Shown here: positions 53,977 to 60,566 of the stretch, piece by piece
How positions within the stretch are numbered: position 1 is the first letter of the stretch
Layout of the letters: each line of letters starts with the position of its first letter
Origin: Pseudogemmatithrix spongiicola
GTDB taxonomy: Bacteria; Gemmatimonadota; Gemmatimonadetes; Gemmatimonadales; Gemmatimonadaceae
Assembly (NCBI RefSeq): GCF_030623445.1
Contig: NZ_CP130613.1
Coordinates: 1,426,001 to 1,490,000 of the forward strand
Direction: 5' to 3'
DNA: 64,000 nucleotides
Made by a program: the position numbers and the translations under genes
Notes under the pieces: model-generated
The model's input: the letters and a program-made list of their open reading frames with translations, nothing else
Databases searched by the model: none
What the model was told of the DNA's origin: nothing

Positions 53977-54471
53977 GTGATTGAAGTCAACGTCCAGCGG
54001 ATCGGCCTCGACGCGCAGTCGCAGGCCTTCGTCGTGATCCTCGAGGAGCGCGCGGGTGACCGCGCGCTTCCCATTTGGATCGGGCGGCCGGAGGCGGAGG
54101 CGATCGCGGCGCACCTGAATGACGTGAAGCGCGAGCGGCCGATGACGCATGACCTCGCGGCCTCGCTCATCACCGGCCTCGGCGGGCTCCTGCGCCGCGT
54201 GCAGATCACGCGCGTGGTGCAGGGAACGTTCCATGCCGAGCTCCATCTCAATCGCCACGGCAGCAACATCGTCGTGGACGCGCGTCCGTCGGACGCGATC
54301 GCCATCGCCTTGCGTGCGGGGGCGCCGATCTTCGTCGCCGAGGCGCTGTTCGACGGGGACGACGATGCGGACGCCGACGCGCCGGCCGACGGTGACCATC
54401 TTTCAGTCGAGGAGCTGCAGCGGCACCTGAGCCACCTGCGGCCCGAGGACTTCGGACGCTTTACGCCATGA
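53977..54471 (+). CDS. Bifunctional nuclease family protein (DUF151)
   Basis: 164 residues from GTG 53977. DUF151/BFN domain: LPIWIGRPEAEAIAAHLNDVKRERPMTHDL, HAELHLNRHGSNIVVDARPSDAIAIALR, ending with an acidic stretch and a C-terminal helix. Plant and bacterial members have been described as nucleases, but the biochemistry in bacteria is not settled. Overlaps the next gene by 4 bp. Confidence 0.88.
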   Translation: MIEVNVQRIGLDAQSQAFVVILEERAGDRALPIWIGRPEAEAIAAHLNDVKRERPMTHDLAASLITGLGGLLRRVQITRVVQGTFHAELHLNRHGSNIVVDARPSDAIAIALRAGAPIFVAEALFDGDDDADADAPADGDHLSVEELQRHLSHLRPEDFGRFTP

Positions 54472-55625
54472 CCGCACGCCGTCGCTTCGCGCTCCTACTC
54501 TCGCTCGCCGCGCTCGTGGCGATGCCGCTCGCCGCCCAGGGAACGCCGCGCGCGCTGGCCGGGACGGTGACGCGGCCGGGGGCGGGCAATCGGCAGCTTC
54601 CGGTGCCGGGTGTCTGGGTCGTGCTGCACCGCGTCGGCGTGGACGCGGCGAATCCCATCGACTCCATGCGCACGCGCGGCGACGGAACGTATGCCTTCGA
54701 GTACCGCGCGACCGGCGACACGAACGCCGTGTACTTCGTGAGCGCATCGCGCGGCGGCATCGCCTACTTCACGCCGCCGACGCGCGAAGCACGCGTGCGC
54801 GGCGGCATGGCCGACCTGCAAGTGTTCGACACGACGAGTGGACCGGTGCCGATCACCGTGCGCGGACGGCACGTCATCGTGACCGCGCCGGACACGGCGC
54901 AGCCCGTGCGTACCGTCATCGAAGTGTACGAACTCTCGAACGACAGCTCGCTGACGCGCGTGCCCGGGGCCGGACAGGTCGCGACCTTCGAGGCGCCGCT
55001 GCCCGCCGGCGTCACCGAGGTGATCGGCGGTCAGGGCGACATCTCGCCGGACGCCGTGCGCGCCGACGAAGGCCGCGTGCGCGTCTGGGCCCCGATCTCG
55101 CCGGGACTCAAGCAGTTCTCGTTCTCGTATGTGCTGCCGTTGAGCCAGACGGAGCTGTCGATCGCCCTGGAGCAGGACGTCCCGGTGATGGAGGTGCTCG
55201 TCGAGGACCCGCGCGGATCGGCCCTCGGTGCCGGATTGACCGAGGTGGACCCGGTGCAGGTCGACGGTCGCCCGTTCAAGCGTTTCCTGGCCCAAGACCT
55301 GAAGGCGCCGGCCACCGTGACGATCTCCGCGCCCGGCACGCAGGACTCCGGGTCGAGGACCCGCCTGTTGCTCATCGTCACCGCCGTCGGTGCGGCCATG
55401 TTGCTCGGCTTTGGCATGGCCATCATGCGGCGCGGCCCGGATGCGTTTGCGCGTCGCCGCGAGCCGACGCCGGAGGCGCTGGCGGCCGAGATCGCGGCCC
55501 TCGACGCGGCATACGACCAGCTTGCCGCACCGACCGAAGAGCAGAAAGCCGAGCACTACCTCAAGCGCGCGCAGTTGAAGGGGCGGTTGAGTGCCGTGCT
55601 TGCCAAGCGGGACGGGCTCGCGTAG
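54468..55625 (+). CDS. Secreted membrane protein with carboxypeptidase-regulatory-like domain
   Basis: 385 residues. Signal peptide (cut near LAAQG), then a beta-sandwich resembling carboxypeptidase-regulatory/CNA-B modules (GVWVVLHRVGVDAANPIDSMRTRGDGTYAFEY), another beta region, one membrane helix near residues 300-321, and a cytosolic coiled tail of about 45 residues (PEALAAEIAALDAAYDQLAAPT). The topology is extracytoplasmic sandwich, TM, coiled tail. Similar tails occur in CcmH/CycH-type and resA-like proteins, but no function can be assigned. The cobalamin riboswitch starts right after its stop. Confidence 0.6.
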   Translation: MTARRRFALLLSLAALVAMPLAAQGTPRALAGTVTRPGAGNRQLPVPGVWVVLHRVGVDAANPIDSMRTRGDGTYAFEYRATGDTNAVYFVSASRGGIAYFTPPTREARVRGGMADLQVFDTTSGPVPITVRGRHVIVTAPDTAQPVRTVIEVYELSNDSSLTRVPGAGQVATFEAPLPAGVTEVIGGQGDISPDAVRADEGRVRVWAPISPGLKQFSFSYVLPLSQTELSIALEQDVPVMEVLVEDPRGSALGAGLTEVDPVQVDGRPFKRFLAQDLKAPATVTISAPGTQDSGSRTRLLLIVTAVGAAMLLGFGMAIMRRGPDAFARRREPTPEALAAEIAALDAAYDQLAAPTEEQKAEHYLKRAQLKGRLSAVLAKRDGLA

Positions 55626-55626
55626 G

Positions 55627-55800
55627 ATTCCGTCCAACAACTGAAGGCGAACGCGGGACACGGAAGCCGGTGCAATGCCGGCGCGGCCCCGCCACTGTAT
55701 CGGGCATCAGCATTCGTCCACTCGAGCACAGCCACTGCGACTTGCGGGTCGCGGGAAGGTGAGTGAGACGGCCCGGAGCCAGGAGACGACCCACGTTCGC
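55627..55800 (+). promoter_or_regulatory. Cobalamin riboswitch (aptamer)
   Basis: The leader contains the conserved B12-box core GCCGGTGCAATGCCGG followed by GCGGCCCCGCCACTGT (about 55665-55698) and the later AGCCAGGAGAC (55778-55788), with GGGAAGG-GAGTGAGAC in between. These are the hallmark segments of the cobalamin aptamer. Binding of adenosylcobalamin normally shuts off the genes downstream, here btuFCDB. Borders are approximate. Confidence 0.92.
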
Positions 55801-55883
55801 GCCACATCGTCACCCTCGGGGGAGGGTCCGTGGCGTTCGCGTAGGTCCGCTGATCATCGACGGGCCGAGCTGACGTGCATCCG

Positions 55884-55909
55884 GGCTCCTTCCCATTGCG
55901 GAAGGAGCC
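55884..55909 (+). promoter_or_regulatory. Riboswitch expression platform: hairpin hiding the btuF ribosome-binding site
   Basis: GGCTCCTTCC (55884-55893) and GGAAGGAGCC (55900-55909) form a perfect 10-bp stem with a 6-nt loop. The right arm holds the Shine-Dalgarno GGAAGGAG (55900-55907), six bases before the GTG at 55914. This is a translational off-switch. A further hairpin ACCCTC/GAGGGT lies at 55812-55827, within an outer CGCCAC/GTGGCG pair. Confidence 0.8.
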
Positions 55910-55913
55910 TTTC

Positions 55914-56834
55914 GTGTTCTCGGACCCGGTTCGTCGGATCGCCACACTCGCGCTGCTGCTCGCTGCTTGCACGGGCCAGGAGCGCGCCGCGACGGGCGGG
56001 CCCGCGTTCTCGCACACGGTGATCGACGACTTCGGCGACACGTCGCGCTTCGCGCGGCCGGCACAGCGCGTCGTCTCGCTGAACCCCGTGACGACCGAGT
56101 TGCTGTTCGCCCTCGGTGTCGGGGATCGCGCCGTCGGGCGCACGACCTGGGACCTGTTCCCCGAGGCCGCGAAGGCCGTGCCCGACCTCGGCCCCGGCAT
56201 GGGGCCCAACGTCGAGGCCGTGATGGGCCAGCGGCCGGACCTGGTGCTGCTCTACGCCAGCGAGTCCAACCGCGCCGCGGTGCAGCAGCTGCGCGCCGCC
56301 GGCATCGCGACGCTCACGCATCGCACCGACAAGGTCGCCGACCTGCAGCGCGTGTTGCCCGTGATTGCCGCGGCACTGGGCGTGGATTCGCTCGGCCGCC
56401 TCGTCGCCGACTCGGTGCGCGCCTCCGTCGAGGCGGTGCGCGCGATGCCGCGCCCGGCGGAACCCGTGCGCGCGTTCTGGCACATCTGGGATGCGCCGAT
56501 CATGACGATCGGCGGCGGCAGCTACATGTCTGAGCTGTTGGAGATCGCCGGGGCGGTGAACGTCTTTGCCGACGCCGAGCAGCCGTCACCGGCCGTGTCG
56601 CTGGAGGAGATTGCGCGGCGCAATCCCGACGTGATCCTCGCGGGGCCCAACAACGCGCGCAAGTTGCGGGCGAATCCGCTCTGGCAGGCCGTGCCGGCGG
56701 TGCGCGCCGGTCGCATTCTCGTGATCGACACCACGGTGGTCGGGCGCCCCGGCGTGCGCATGGGCGAGGCCGCGCGCTTCCTGCGTCGCGCGCTGGTGGA
56801 TTCGTTCGCGAACATCGGCTCGGGCCTGCCGTGA
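55914..56834 (+). CDS. btuF: Cobalamin-binding lipoprotein of the B12 ABC importer
   Basis: 306 residues from GTG 55914, chosen because a strong Shine-Dalgarno precedes it; an upstream GTG at 55875 would place the riboswitch hairpin inside the coding region. Signal peptide with lipobox LLAAC, so it is membrane-tethered. Two-lobed metal-chelate-type binding protein: RVVSLNPVTTELLFALGVGDRAVG, RPDLVLLYASESN, HIWDAPIMTIGGGSYMSELLEIAGAVN. First gene of the riboswitch-controlled operon btuF-C-D-B. Confidence 0.92.
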   Translation: MFSDPVRRIATLALLLAACTGQERAATGGPAFSHTVIDDFGDTSRFARPAQRVVSLNPVTTELLFALGVGDRAVGRTTWDLFPEAAKAVPDLGPGMGPNVEAVMGQRPDLVLLYASESNRAAVQQLRAAGIATLTHRTDKVADLQRVLPVIAAALGVDSLGRLVADSVRASVEAVRAMPRPAEPVRAFWHIWDAPIMTIGGGSYMSELLEIAGAVNVFADAEQPSPAVSLEEIARRNPDVILAGPNNARKLRANPLWQAVPAVRAGRILVIDTTVVGRPGVRMGEAARFLRRALVDSFANIGSGLP

Positions 56835-57805
56835 GCCTGCGCCTTTGGCTGCTGCTGGTGGGCATTGTCATCGTCGCCGCGGTGGTGGCGGTGGCCGGCG
56901 GTGCCGTGCCGATCGCGGCCCTCGATGTGCTGCGCGCGCTCGTCGGGCAGGGAGACGCCACGCAAGTCGCCATCGTGCAGGACCTCCGGCTCCCGCGCAT
57001 TGCGCTCGGCATCACCGTCGGCGCGGGCTTGGCGGTGAGCGGTGCCGCGCTGCAGACCACGCTGCGTAATCCGCTCGCGGAGCCGTACCTGCTCGGCGTC
57101 TCCGGCGGGGCCGCGGCGGGCGCCGTCACGGCGGTCACGCTCGGCATCGCGTCCGCCGCGGTGCTGCCGCTGGCCGCATTCGCCGGCGCAGTCGCCGCGG
57201 TCGTCGTCGTGTTGCTGGTGGCGCGCGCCGTGGCCGGCCACGCCGACCCGCGCGTGCTGCTCATGGCTGGCGTCGTGGTCGGCGCGTTCTGCACCGCGCT
57301 CATCATGGTCGCCCTCGCCACGGCGCCGGAGAACACCGTGCGCGGTGCGCTGTGGTGGATGATGGGCTCCCTCGGTGACGCGCAGTGGCGTGGCGTACGC
57401 TGGGTCGCGCTCTACGTGGCGGTCGGCATCGGACTGCTCGTCCTGTGGGCGCGCGACATCGACGTGCTCGCCCTGGGCGAAGACGCGGCGGCCTCGTTGG
57501 GCCTCCCCGTCGAGCGCGTGACGCGCCGCGTCTACTTCGCGGCCTCGCTGCTCGCCGCAGCCACCGTGGCGGGCGCCGGACTCATCGGCTTCGTCGGCTT
57601 GATCGTACCCGCGATCGGCCGCGCGCTCGGAGCCCGCAACACGCGCGAGAGTCTGCTCGCCGCCGCACTCGTCGGCGCGGCACTGGTCGTGCTCGCCGAT
57701 CTCGCCGCCCGCACGCTGCTGCGCCCCGCGGAACTCCCGCTCGGCGCCGTGACTGCCCTCATCGGCGTGCCGTTCTTCCTCTGGCGCCTGCGGAGGATGC
57801 GATGA
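56831..57805 (+). CDS. btuC: B12 ABC importer, permease
   Basis: 324 residues from GTG 56831 (overlap). FecCD-family permease with about ten membrane helices: LRLPRIALGITVGAGLAVSGAALQT, NPLAEPYLLGVSGGAA, GLIGFVGLIVPAIGRALGA, LPLGAVTALIGVPFFLWRL. It forms the homodimeric channel. The B12 substrate is inferred from the riboswitch and btuB. Confidence 0.93.
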   Translation: MSLRLWLLLVGIVIVAAVVAVAGGAVPIAALDVLRALVGQGDATQVAIVQDLRLPRIALGITVGAGLAVSGAALQTTLRNPLAEPYLLGVSGGAAAGAVTAVTLGIASAAVLPLAAFAGAVAAVVVVLLVARAVAGHADPRVLLMAGVVVGAFCTALIMVALATAPENTVRGALWWMMGSLGDAQWRGVRWVALYVAVGIGLLVLWARDIDVLALGEDAAASLGLPVERVTRRVYFAASLLAAATVAGAGLIGFVGLIVPAIGRALGARNTRESLLAAALVGAALVVLADLAARTLLRPAELPLGAVTALIGVPFFLWRLRRMR

Positions 57806-58590
57806 TCCGCTTCACGGACGTGGTGATGCGCTATCCGCACGCGGCGGCGCCCGCCGTCGATGGCGTGAGTTTCGACGTGCCGCCCGGTCGCATCACGGCG
57901 GTCGTCGGCCCGAACGGCAGCGGCAAGAGCACCTTGGTGCGTGCCTTGCTTGGACGGTTGCCGCTCGAGCGCGGCGCCATTGCACTCGATGGCCGTGACC
58001 TCATGACGATGCCCCGTCGCGATGTCGCCACGCAGATGGCAGTCGTCGCGCAGCGCGAGGAGCCGGTCTTCCCGCTGCCGGTTCCCGAGTACATCGCGCT
58101 GGGGCGGCATCCGCACGGTGGACCGTTCTCGGGACGCAGCCCCGAGGACCGGGCGGCGATTGCGCGCGCCGTGCAGCGCGCCGACGTCGCGGCCTTCGCC
58201 GATCGCAGCACCGACCAGCTCTCGGGCGGCGAGTGGCAGCGCGTGCGCATCGCCCGGGCGCTCGCGCAGGGTGGGCGCAGCCTCGTGCTCGATGAGCCCA
58301 CCACGTTCCTCGATATCGCGCACGAGATGGCGGTGTTCGAACTGCTCGACGCGCTCGCGCGCGAAGGGCAGGGCATCCTGCTCGTCAGCCATCAGCTCAA
58401 TCTCGTGGCCCGCTTCGCGGACCACATCGTGTTGCTGCACCATGGGCGCATCGCCGCCGCCGGGACGCCGGCCGAGGTGATGCGCGGCGAAGTGCTCGAA
58501 CGCGTCTACGAGTGGCCACTCGTGGTCTCGCGCGATCCCGCCGTCGGCGCACCGGTGCTCGTACCGTTGCGCGGCCGGGGCACTCGCTAA
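57802..58590 (+). CDS. btuD: B12 ABC importer, ATPase
   Basis: 262 residues from ATG 57802 (overlap with btuC). ABC ATPase with Walker A GPNGSGKST, Q loop, signature QLSGGEWQRVRIARAL, Walker B LVLDEPTTFLD and H loop VSHQLNL. Drives import through BtuC. Confidence 0.94.
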   Translation: MIRFTDVVMRYPHAAAPAVDGVSFDVPPGRITAVVGPNGSGKSTLVRALLGRLPLERGAIALDGRDLMTMPRRDVATQMAVVAQREEPVFPLPVPEYIALGRHPHGGPFSGRSPEDRAAIARAVQRADVAAFADRSTDQLSGGEWQRVRIARALAQGGRSLVLDEPTTFLDIAHEMAVFELLDALAREGQGILLVSHQLNLVARFADHIVLLHHGRIAAAGTPAEVMRGEVLERVYEWPLVVSRDPAVGAPVLVPLRGRGTR

Positions 58591-58646
58591 CCAGTCCGCG
58601 ACCTCTCCGCCTCGTCTCCGTTTCCCCAACTTCCGGCACTCTTCCT

Positions 58647-60566
58647 GTGAAGCACGCCTTCCTTCTCCTCGCCGCACTACCCGGTCTCCTCACCGCGCAG
58701 GACTCGCTGCCCGCGACGGTCATCACCGCCACGCGGCTGCCCACGCCGATCAATGCCCAGACGGCCGCCGTCACGGTGCTCGATGCGCAACTGCTCCGCG
58801 CGGAGGGCGTCACGCACGTGGGCGACGCGCTGCGGCGTGTGCCAGGCATCGCGATGGCCCGCAGCTCCGGCATCGGCTCGCAGCACACCGTCTTCATGCG
58901 TGGCGGCCAGGGCAACTACGTGCGCGTGCTCGTGGACGGCGTGGCCATCAACGAACCCGGCGGCACCCTCGATCTCGGACGCCTCACGCTCGATGACGTC
59001 GAACGCATCGAGGTGGTGCGCGGCCCGGCCAGTGTGCTCTATGGCTCGGAGGCCGTGACGGGCGTCATCCAGATCATCACGCGCCGCGGCGCGGGGGCCG
59101 CTCGCCTCCGCAGCGAGTTCGGCGGCGGCTCCTTCGGCACCGTGCGCGGATCGCTCGGCGCCAGCGGGGCCCTCGGTCGTCTCGGATGGACGCTGCAGGG
59201 TGACCGCCACGCCATGGATGGCGTCCTCGATTTCAACAACGCGTATCGCAATGACGGCATCTCGGGCGCGCTCGACCTCGCGGCCGACGCGAAGACGGAC
59301 ATCCGTCTCACCGGACGCTTCAACAACTCGATGTACCAATACCCCACCGGTTCGGCCGGGACGCTCGTCGATCGCAACGCCGAGCGCACGGAGAATCGCG
59401 TGCTCGCGGGGCTCGACGTGGGGCGCCGGTGGACCGACCGCGTCGAAACGCGGGCGCAGTACACGTGGATGGACCTCCTGCCGCGCACGAACGACGGGCC
59501 GGACACCCCGGGCGACACGCTCGGCTTCTATGGCTTCTTCGCGCGCGGGGCGGTGAAGCGTCGCATGGCCGACGCGCGCACCACGCTGCGCGTGGGCGAT
59601 GCGCAGTTCCTCACGCTGGGCGCCGAGTGGGCTCGTGACCAGGAGCGCAGCACCTCGGTGAGTCAGTCGCAGTTCGGCGATTTCCCGGACACGCTCCGCG
59701 CCGCGCGCGAGAACAGGGCCCTCTACGCGCAAGCGCTCGGCGAGCGGGGACGCCTCAGCTACACGGTTGGCGCGCGACTCGACGAGAACTCGGCATTCGG
59801 CAGCTTCCGCACCGCGCGACTCGGGGCGGGCTGGCGCATCGCGGACGGGCTGCGCGTGCGCAGCTCCGCGGGGACGGCGTTCAAGGCGCCCAACTTCTTC
59901 GAGAACTTCGCGGGCGGCTTCACGGTCGGGAATCCCGACCTGCGTCCGGAGGAGTCGCGCTCGGCGGACCTCGGGATCGACGCGACGCTGGCGACGGGCG
60001 TGCGCCTCTCGATCACCGGCTTCGCGCAGCGCTTCAAGAACATGATCCAGTACAACGGCGCCGTGCCCTTCGGCTCGCCCAACTACGAGAACATCGTGGC
60101 GGCGAACGCCGGCGGCGTCGAGGCCGAGGTGACCTTGCCGAGCGTCGGCGGCGTCGAGACGCAGATCGGACACACGTGGACCAGCACGCGCGTCGCGCAG
60201 TCCGGCTTCGACACCACCGCGAGCGCGACCTTCGTGCGGGGCGGCAAGCTGCTCCGTCGGCCGGCCAACGTGACCACGCTGCAACTGCGCCGGGCGCTGG
60301 GCACGCAGGGCAACGTGTCGGCCGTGATCGTCCGCACCGGTGAACGCGAGGACCGCGACTTCGCGTCGTTCCCGGCTGGTGTCGTCGTGCTCGGCGGCTT
60401 CACCACCGTTGACCTTGCCGCCGACCTGCGGTTGCCGGGCCGCCTCGGCGAGACCGGCCGCCTCGTGCTCCGCGCGGATAATGTCACCGACGTGCAGTTC
60501 ACGCAGATCCAGGGCTTCCGGAGTCCGGGTCGCATCCTCTACGCGGGACTTAGATTGGAGCGGTGA
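58647..60566 (+). CDS. btuB: TonB-dependent outer-membrane receptor, BtuB type
   Basis: 639 residues from GTG 58647. Short signal peptide (LLLAALPGLLTAQ), TonB box region around ATVITATRL, plug domain with GDALRRVPGIAMARSSG, VRVLVDGVAINEPGG and VEVVRGP-like VERIEVVRGPASVLYGSEA, then a 22-strand barrel ending YAGLRLER. Vitamin B12 as substrate is inferred from the shared riboswitch operon; no second riboswitch lies in the 56-bp gap after btuD. Confidence 0.92.
   Translation: MKHAFLLLAALPGLLTAQDSLPATVITATRLPTPINAQTAAVTVLDAQLLRAEGVTHVGDALRRVPGIAMARSSGIGSQHTVFMRGGQGNYVRVLVDGVAINEPGGTLDLGRLTLDDVERIEVVRGPASVLYGSEAVTGVIQIITRRGAGAARLRSEFGGGSFGTVRGSLGASGALGRLGWTLQGDRHAMDGVLDFNNAYRNDGISGALDLAADAKTDIRLTGRFNNSMYQYPTGSAGTLVDRNAERTENRVLAGLDVGRRWTDRVETRAQYTWMDLLPRTNDGPDTPGDTLGFYGFFARGAVKRRMADARTTLRVGDAQFLTLGAEWARDQERSTSVSQSQFGDFPDTLRAARENRALYAQALGERGRLSYTVGARLDENSAFGSFRTARLGAGWRIADGLRVRSSAGTAFKAPNFFENFAGGFTVGNPDLRPEESRSADLGIDATLATGVRLSITGFAQRFKNMIQYNGAVPFGSPNYENIVAANAGGVEAEVTLPSVGGVETQIGHTWTSTRVAQSGFDTTASATFVRGGKLLRRPANVTTLQLRRALGTQGNVSAVIVRTGEREDRDFASFPAGVVVLGGFTTVDLAADLRLPGRLGETGRLVLRADNVTDVQFTQIQGFRSPGRILYAGLRLER
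60551..60556 (+). promoter_or_regulatory. TANNNT -10 box (TAGATT) 6 nt before recO, inside btuB
   Basis: TAGATT, six bases (GGAGCG), GTG 60563. It lies in the last codons of btuB and would let recO be transcribed separately from the B12-controlled operon. The GGAG between box and start could also act as ribosome-binding site for the btuB read-through transcript. Confidence 0.5.

Follow-up and report, generated by a model that had tools for sequence, protein, structure and literature searches.

The question raised by this locus is how a cobalamin aptamer acts on the genes that follow it, whether by ending transcription, by hiding the ribosome-binding site of the first gene, or by both. The reading that we favour, and hold to be rather probable, is a cobalamin OFF riboswitch with a dual expression platform and a P13-based antisequestor, which would control a B12 transport operon. 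In the window, by which we mean the whole stretch of 64,000 nt that was analysed (1426001-1490000), the cobalamin aptamer was the sole Rfam RNA family found, and it is the single RF00174 copy in the 3.26-Mb genome. An earlier note on this DNA had placed a cobalamin riboswitch before btuF, and the covariance-model search of the leader bears this out, with a match on the forward strand that spans the full model (1-189) and scores 71.3 bits against a gathering threshold of 31.5 (E 1.4e-15), and with a transport operon downstream. Judged from their domain matches, the genes 3′ of the aptamer are a btuF-btuC-btuD-btuB-type B12-uptake operon, B12 being the presumed substrate in view of the riboswitch and the gene order.

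55637..55809, + strand: cobalamin aptamer (RF00174, 71.3 bits)
55647..55653, + strand: P1 5′ strand GCGAACG, pairing with CGTTCGC 55794-55800
55794..55800, + strand: P1 3′ strand CGTTCGC, pairing with GCGAACG 55647-55653
55914..56834, + strand: btuF, periplasmic binding lipoprotein with a LAAC lipobox, start GTG 55914 (PF01497, 2.1e-32)
56831..57805, + strand: btuC-like permease (PF01032, FecCD, 7.5e-86)
57796..58590, + strand: btuD-like ATPase (PF00005, ABC, 8e-29)
58632..60566, + strand: btuB-like TonB-dependent receptor (PF00593, 3.7e-35; PF07715, 1.5e-25)

The riboswitch is adjoined upstream by a 385-aa ORF (54468-55625) without a Pfam match, whose 3′ end (...KRDGLA) is also found 5′ of the riboswitch in several congeners. 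A promoter match lies within the 3′ end of this ORF, and the first half of its -10 box is the TAG stop codon of the ORF.

55600..55628, + strand: sigma-70-like promoter TTGCCA-N17-TAGGAT (promoter scan and conservation)

It is the sole promoter-like site between 55400 and 56000 (the mean in shuffled sequences is 0.0), and transcription would begin just 3′ of TAGGAT 55628. Across the order, TTG and TA...T boxes with 16-18 nt spacing stand 5′ of 45 of the 51 cobalamin riboswitches, where about 1% is expected by chance, and the spacing is exactly 17 nt in 43 of the 51. The other 6 loci do not follow this rule, and all four loci of the f3 family are among them. The conserved promoter 5′ of the cobalamin riboswitches of the order is one addition of the present analysis.

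The earlier note had described a perfect 10-bp stem carrying the ribosome-binding site in its right arm and ending 4 nt before GTG 55914. We confirmed both points. The hairpin, hereafter hp2, consists of GGCTCCTTCC (55884-55893), the loop CATTGC and GGAAGGAGCC (55900-55909), which form ten Watson-Crick pairs with an energy of -18.9 kcal/mol.

55884..55909, + strand: hp2, sequestor/terminator hairpin, whose right arm holds the Shine-Dalgarno sequence GGAAGGAG at 55900-55907
55844..55866, + strand: variable mid hairpin, about GGTCCG...CGGGCC

Over the genus, the strongest hairpin in this segment has a mean energy of -19.0 kcal/mol; dinucleotide shuffles give -12.1 kcal/mol, and none of the 25 shuffles of this genome reached the native value. 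In the genus alignment, 92% of the hp2 cells are paired and three pairs have changes on both sides, while for the mid hairpin all 4 helix pairs have such changes. Taking P13 (described below), the mid hairpin and hp2 together, with the anti-P1 helix included in the scored structure, 93% of cells are paired across 15 congeners; 47 cells have changed on both sides, where shuffles give 20 and slid controls 5-14. A pairing of the aptamer core GGAGCC with GGCTCC of hp2 is possible in this genome, and it was rejected when swapping arms among genomes revealed no co-variation (p 0.23 in the genus, 0.59 in all).

What connects the aptamer to hp2? It had been suggested that B12 acts directly on the Shine-Dalgarno stem. 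The stem and the aptamer are indeed present, but this overlooked the P13-L13 hairpin, which lies directly 3′ of P1 and 50-85 nt upstream of hp2, and it is this hairpin just after the aptamer that would be the B12-coupled element. In the cobalamin riboswitch family, coupling is known to work through the L5-L13 kissing loop (PMC10653944).

55687..55691, + strand: L5 loop CCCCG, kissing partner of L13 (5 contiguous pairs with CGGGG)
55800..55835, + strand: P13-L13 hairpin, outer stem CGCCAC/GTGGCG, inner stem ACCCTC/GAGGGT, -18.1 kcal/mol
55817-55821, + strand: L13 CGGGG, the loop of P13

By sequence complementarity only, L5 and L13 can form 5 kissing pairs here and 3-5 in all 141 loci with a recognisable L5. 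A variable loop between CCACTG and CGGGAAGG had also been considered as L5, which would have left no kissing loop, and was dropped in favour of CCCCG on the basis of the L5 consensus UCCCG as quoted in PMC10653944. The outer stem of P13 is 99% paired and the inner stem 98.9% paired in the 15 congeners. Its core CCTCGNGGGAGG is nearly invariant, the exact pattern joined to the aptamer end being present in 148 of the 298 genomes of the phylum and the reversed control pattern in 0 of the 298. The named matches of this type of motif are mostly from Gemmatimonadota, to which the present genome is accordingly assigned. The same core after an aptamer end was also seen in loci labelled Acidobacteria, Deltaproteobacteria, Zixiibacteriota, Latescibacterota and Armatimonadetes (L068, L073, L087, L098, L099, L115, L126 and L132), with a terminator-like hairpin and a T-run following in L087 and L126; other matches such as L121, L128, L104 and L137 are apparently due to chance.

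The 3′ side of P13 has a second possible partner, since it can pair with the region that runs into the left arm of hp2.

55820..55836, + strand: P13 3′ side GGGAGGGTCCGTGGCGT, antisequestor strand, predicted to pair with 55873-55894
55873..55883, + strand: conserved ACGTGCATCCG, antisequestor partner, containing GTG 55875 (CGTGC invariant in 15 of 15)

The helix of the ACGTGCATCCG region with GGUGGCGU is 95% paired in the genus alignment. For the nascent RNA 55801-55897, folded without the aptamer, the minimum is -41.8 kcal/mol as against -37.1 kcal/mol with full P13 forced, so that the antisequestor is favoured by 4.7 kcal/mol in this genome; in this minimum fold of an RNA that ends short of the hp2 right arm, the P13 3′ side pairs with ACGUGCAUCCG and the hp2 left arm and not within P13. 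The antisequestor beats P13 in 15 of 15 congeners by 0.8-7.7 kcal/mol (this comparison gives -6.8 for the present genome owing to slightly different bounds and P13 constraint). RNAalifold found the pairing of the P13 3′ side unprompted when the alignment was cut before the right arm of hp2, and in truncated downstream RNAs of 31 genomes the hp2 left arm pairs mainly with the same strand. The arrangement thus resembles the P13-based antiterminator of the P. megaterium metE type, in that the strand is complementary and its alternative pairing beats P13, without independent covariation. Compensatory changes in the antisequestor do not exceed chance (96.4% of cells paired as against 95.8% in shuffles), in the genus its z score averages -1.3 (median p 0.10), only modestly stronger than shuffled sequence, and its core, limited to the hp2 left arm, is no stronger than shuffles. 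GGGAGGG/CCUUCCC as a stand-alone duplex is likewise not stronger than shuffles and was discarded. With an unconstrained aptamer added to the truncated RNA, aptamer sequence often takes the place of the P13 3′ side as partner of the hp2 left arm (0.75 in this genome). In these models the antisequestor pairing would account for the conservation of ACGTGCATC in an otherwise variable region. In each of the 15 congeners the conserved ACGUG also has a possible partner in CACGU of the P1 3′ strand (A1 columns 16-20 with 104-108, that is 55792-55796 with 55873-55877 of the window), giving an anti-P1 helix that is 100% paired with G-U changes only and would compete with P1; the P13 3′ side explains more of ACGTGCATC than this CACGU/ACGUG helix does.

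Once the transcript is complete, hp2 prevails by about 14 kcal/mol, and at equilibrium it forms regardless of the state of the aptamer. As the finished hp2 is so much more stable, the switching decision would have to be kinetic. With cobalamin bound, the aptamer and P1 would fold, L5 would kiss L13 and P13 would be locked, as expected from the known mechanism. Its 3′ side would then be occupied, leaving the left arm of hp2 to pair with the right arm once this is transcribed; hp2 would bury the Shine-Dalgarno sequence and, together with the T-rich tract behind it, may also release RNA polymerase. Without cobalamin, the unlocked P13 3′ side GGGAGGGUCCGUGGCGU would capture ACGUGCAUCCG and the hp2 left arm while the right arm is still to be made, and with hp2 delayed the polymerase would pass and ribosomes would initiate at GTG 55914.

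In two other readings hp2 would act on one process only.

55910..55917, + strand: T-rich tract TTTCGTGT, 5 of 8 T, also the spacer between the Shine-Dalgarno sequence and the start

That hp2 only hides the Shine-Dalgarno sequence, with the T-rich spacer having no effect on polymerase, is unlikely in our estimate, although the Shine-Dalgarno sequence is centred in the right arm at the correct spacing, the longest T-run is 3, and P13 itself serves as the ribosome-binding-site hairpin in the four f3 loci, G032, G033 L043, G049, G052 and G056 L011, where the gene starts right after it and control is translational. The earlier note had taken the missing long T-run as a reason for translational control alone; the observation is literally true of TTTCGTGT, but the tract is T-rich for a genome of 69% GC and the argument does not hold. 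At 85 ordinary Shine-Dalgarno starts in 464 kb of this genome (window included; 8 bases beginning 2 nt after the Shine-Dalgarno sequence), the mean is 1.8 T in 8 bases and only 1.2% of sites have at least 5. This richness is maintained across families, as 70 distinct hp2 hairpins have a mean of 5.0 T in 8 and many relatives have runs of 4-7. The terminator-like hairpins at gene 3′ ends in this genome are equally short-tailed (e.g. TTTCCGTT), though the set is small (18 among 257 gene ends, 7 among gene middles) and a minimum of 4 T was a condition of inclusion. In a GC-rich genome a short T-run alone is therefore a poor ground for calling a riboswitch translational. A simple, rather loose terminator scan reported hp2 alone in the region; its tail score is a middling 2.98 at a T-run of 3, where congeners reach 4.37. 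Termination at hp2 is hence plausible, the tract being conserved in the clade but weaker here than in several relatives. The converse view, that hp2 is a terminator whose right arm carries the Shine-Dalgarno sequence through crowding, is quite improbable: it draws on the same T-rich tract, on several f2 and ext relatives with long T-runs and a Shine-Dalgarno sequence badly placed for the start, and on Gram-negative cobalamin riboswitches often being transcriptionally active (PMC12121620), whereas the sequence is ideally placed here and fully paired in hp2, which makes occlusion automatic once hp2 forms.

A short frame in P13 offers one more reading, which we consider very improbable, namely that the SD-like GGGAGGG and GTG 55830 are translated and coupled to btuF as in Mycobacterium tuberculosis ppe2 (PMC11260477).

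55830..55844, + strand: mini-ORF GTG GCG TTC GCG TAG (MAFA*), after the SD-like GGGAGGG of P13

GTG codons following P13 are common across the order, and in several genomes it is from this codon that the gene truly starts. The frame has 4 codons here and 3 to more than 200 elsewhere, and it shares the btuF reading frame in 2 of 14 congeners; elsewhere GTGGC changes to GCGGG along with its pairing partner, whereby the start codon is lost and the stem is kept. No conserved short ORF was found in the relatives, with neither the frame nor the length of MAFA* kept, and a regulatory peptide was rejected as neither frame nor peptide is conserved, the mini-ORF probably being non-functional as a peptide here. 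MAFA* also occurs in G005.

The dual reading places the start of btuF directly after hp2, and the earlier note had likewise preferred GTG 55914 to GTG 55875, which is in frame 13 codons upstream. Comparison of the 15 congeners supports this choice. In 14 of them a start codon of the called frame lies within about 10 nt after hp2, and in the fifteenth (G009), empty in the automatic list of starts, a GTG directly after hp2 opens the lipoprotein frame. An in-frame start 5′ of hp2 is absent in 6 congeners. On inspection, 3 of the 15 have an in-frame, open GTG at the 55875 position (an automatic flag gave four, G006 having a different GTG), and in G011 the frame from this position hits a stop within hp2. 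Since the congener starts follow hp2 and a lipoprotein signal ending in LAAC follows GTG 55914, the latter appears the better supported start, so that the analysis backs one specific start codon for btuF. The conservation around GTG 55875 is probably due to pairing with the P13 3′ side and not to use as a start codon.

Both halves of the proposed mechanism have been published (PMC2258182, PMC10653944). Barrick & Breaker 2007 (PMC2258182) described dual transcription and translation attenuation, in which the ribosome-binding site lies in the 3′ side of a terminator adjoining the ORF, a class that includes AdoCbl riboswitches. Here the terminator-like stem ends at 55909, within 10 nt of GTG 55914, with the Shine-Dalgarno sequence (55900-55907) in its 3′ side, though the tail is weaker than that of a canonical terminator. 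The Priestia megaterium metE corrinoid riboswitch (PMC10653944) shares the L5-L13 kissing loop and a ligand that favours P13 and then the terminator. It is described as transcriptional, whereas the same hairpin here also buries the ribosome-binding site, and the mid hairpin is enclosed by a long predicted antisequestor. Escherichia coli btuB and env8HyCbl, as summarised in PMC10653944, have in common with this locus a cobalamin aptamer, a kissing loop and occlusion of the ribosome-binding site; in that summary P13 promotes the ribosome-binding-site hairpin and the model has no intrinsic terminator hairpin, unlike here. To go by the same summary, the f3 family and some other genomes of the order are nearer to that type than the present locus is. 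The M. tuberculosis ppe2 riboswitch with its uORF (PMC11260477) is similar in that the aptamer may be followed by a short ORF 5′ of the gene, one which here is unconserved as frame or peptide.

Unlike in the loci named above in which the gene starts right after P13, hp2 separates P13 from the gene in the genus to which the window belongs, and in most genomes of its family and of f2. It is possible, and we suggest it tentatively, that within one order a nearly invariant P13 acts either as a direct lock on the ribosome-binding site or as the controller of hp2 as terminator and lock, the platforms having interconverted while aptamer and P13 kept their place. If true, the order would offer a natural series in which dual control evolves from translational control, and its sister riboswitches, which share one P13 but have either of two types of platform, would be a practical system for testing expression-platform evolution. 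A search of a limited set of papers for cobalamin riboswitches with Gemmatimonadetes returned nothing beyond the Caldithrix abyssi genome paper, which is not proof of absence; what is new here is this member, the supported btuF start, the conserved promoter, and direct-P13 and dual platforms in one order. A second subtype (L033, L053, L056, L059, L032, L052) has the P13 outer stem CCCGC/GCGGG for GCCAC/GTGGC, with the GTG lost and the pairing kept, and several of these loci stand 5′ of btuB-like genes. At L052 (G024), two divergent cobalamin riboswitches lie back to back on both strands, one toward a btuB-like and the other toward a btuF-like gene.
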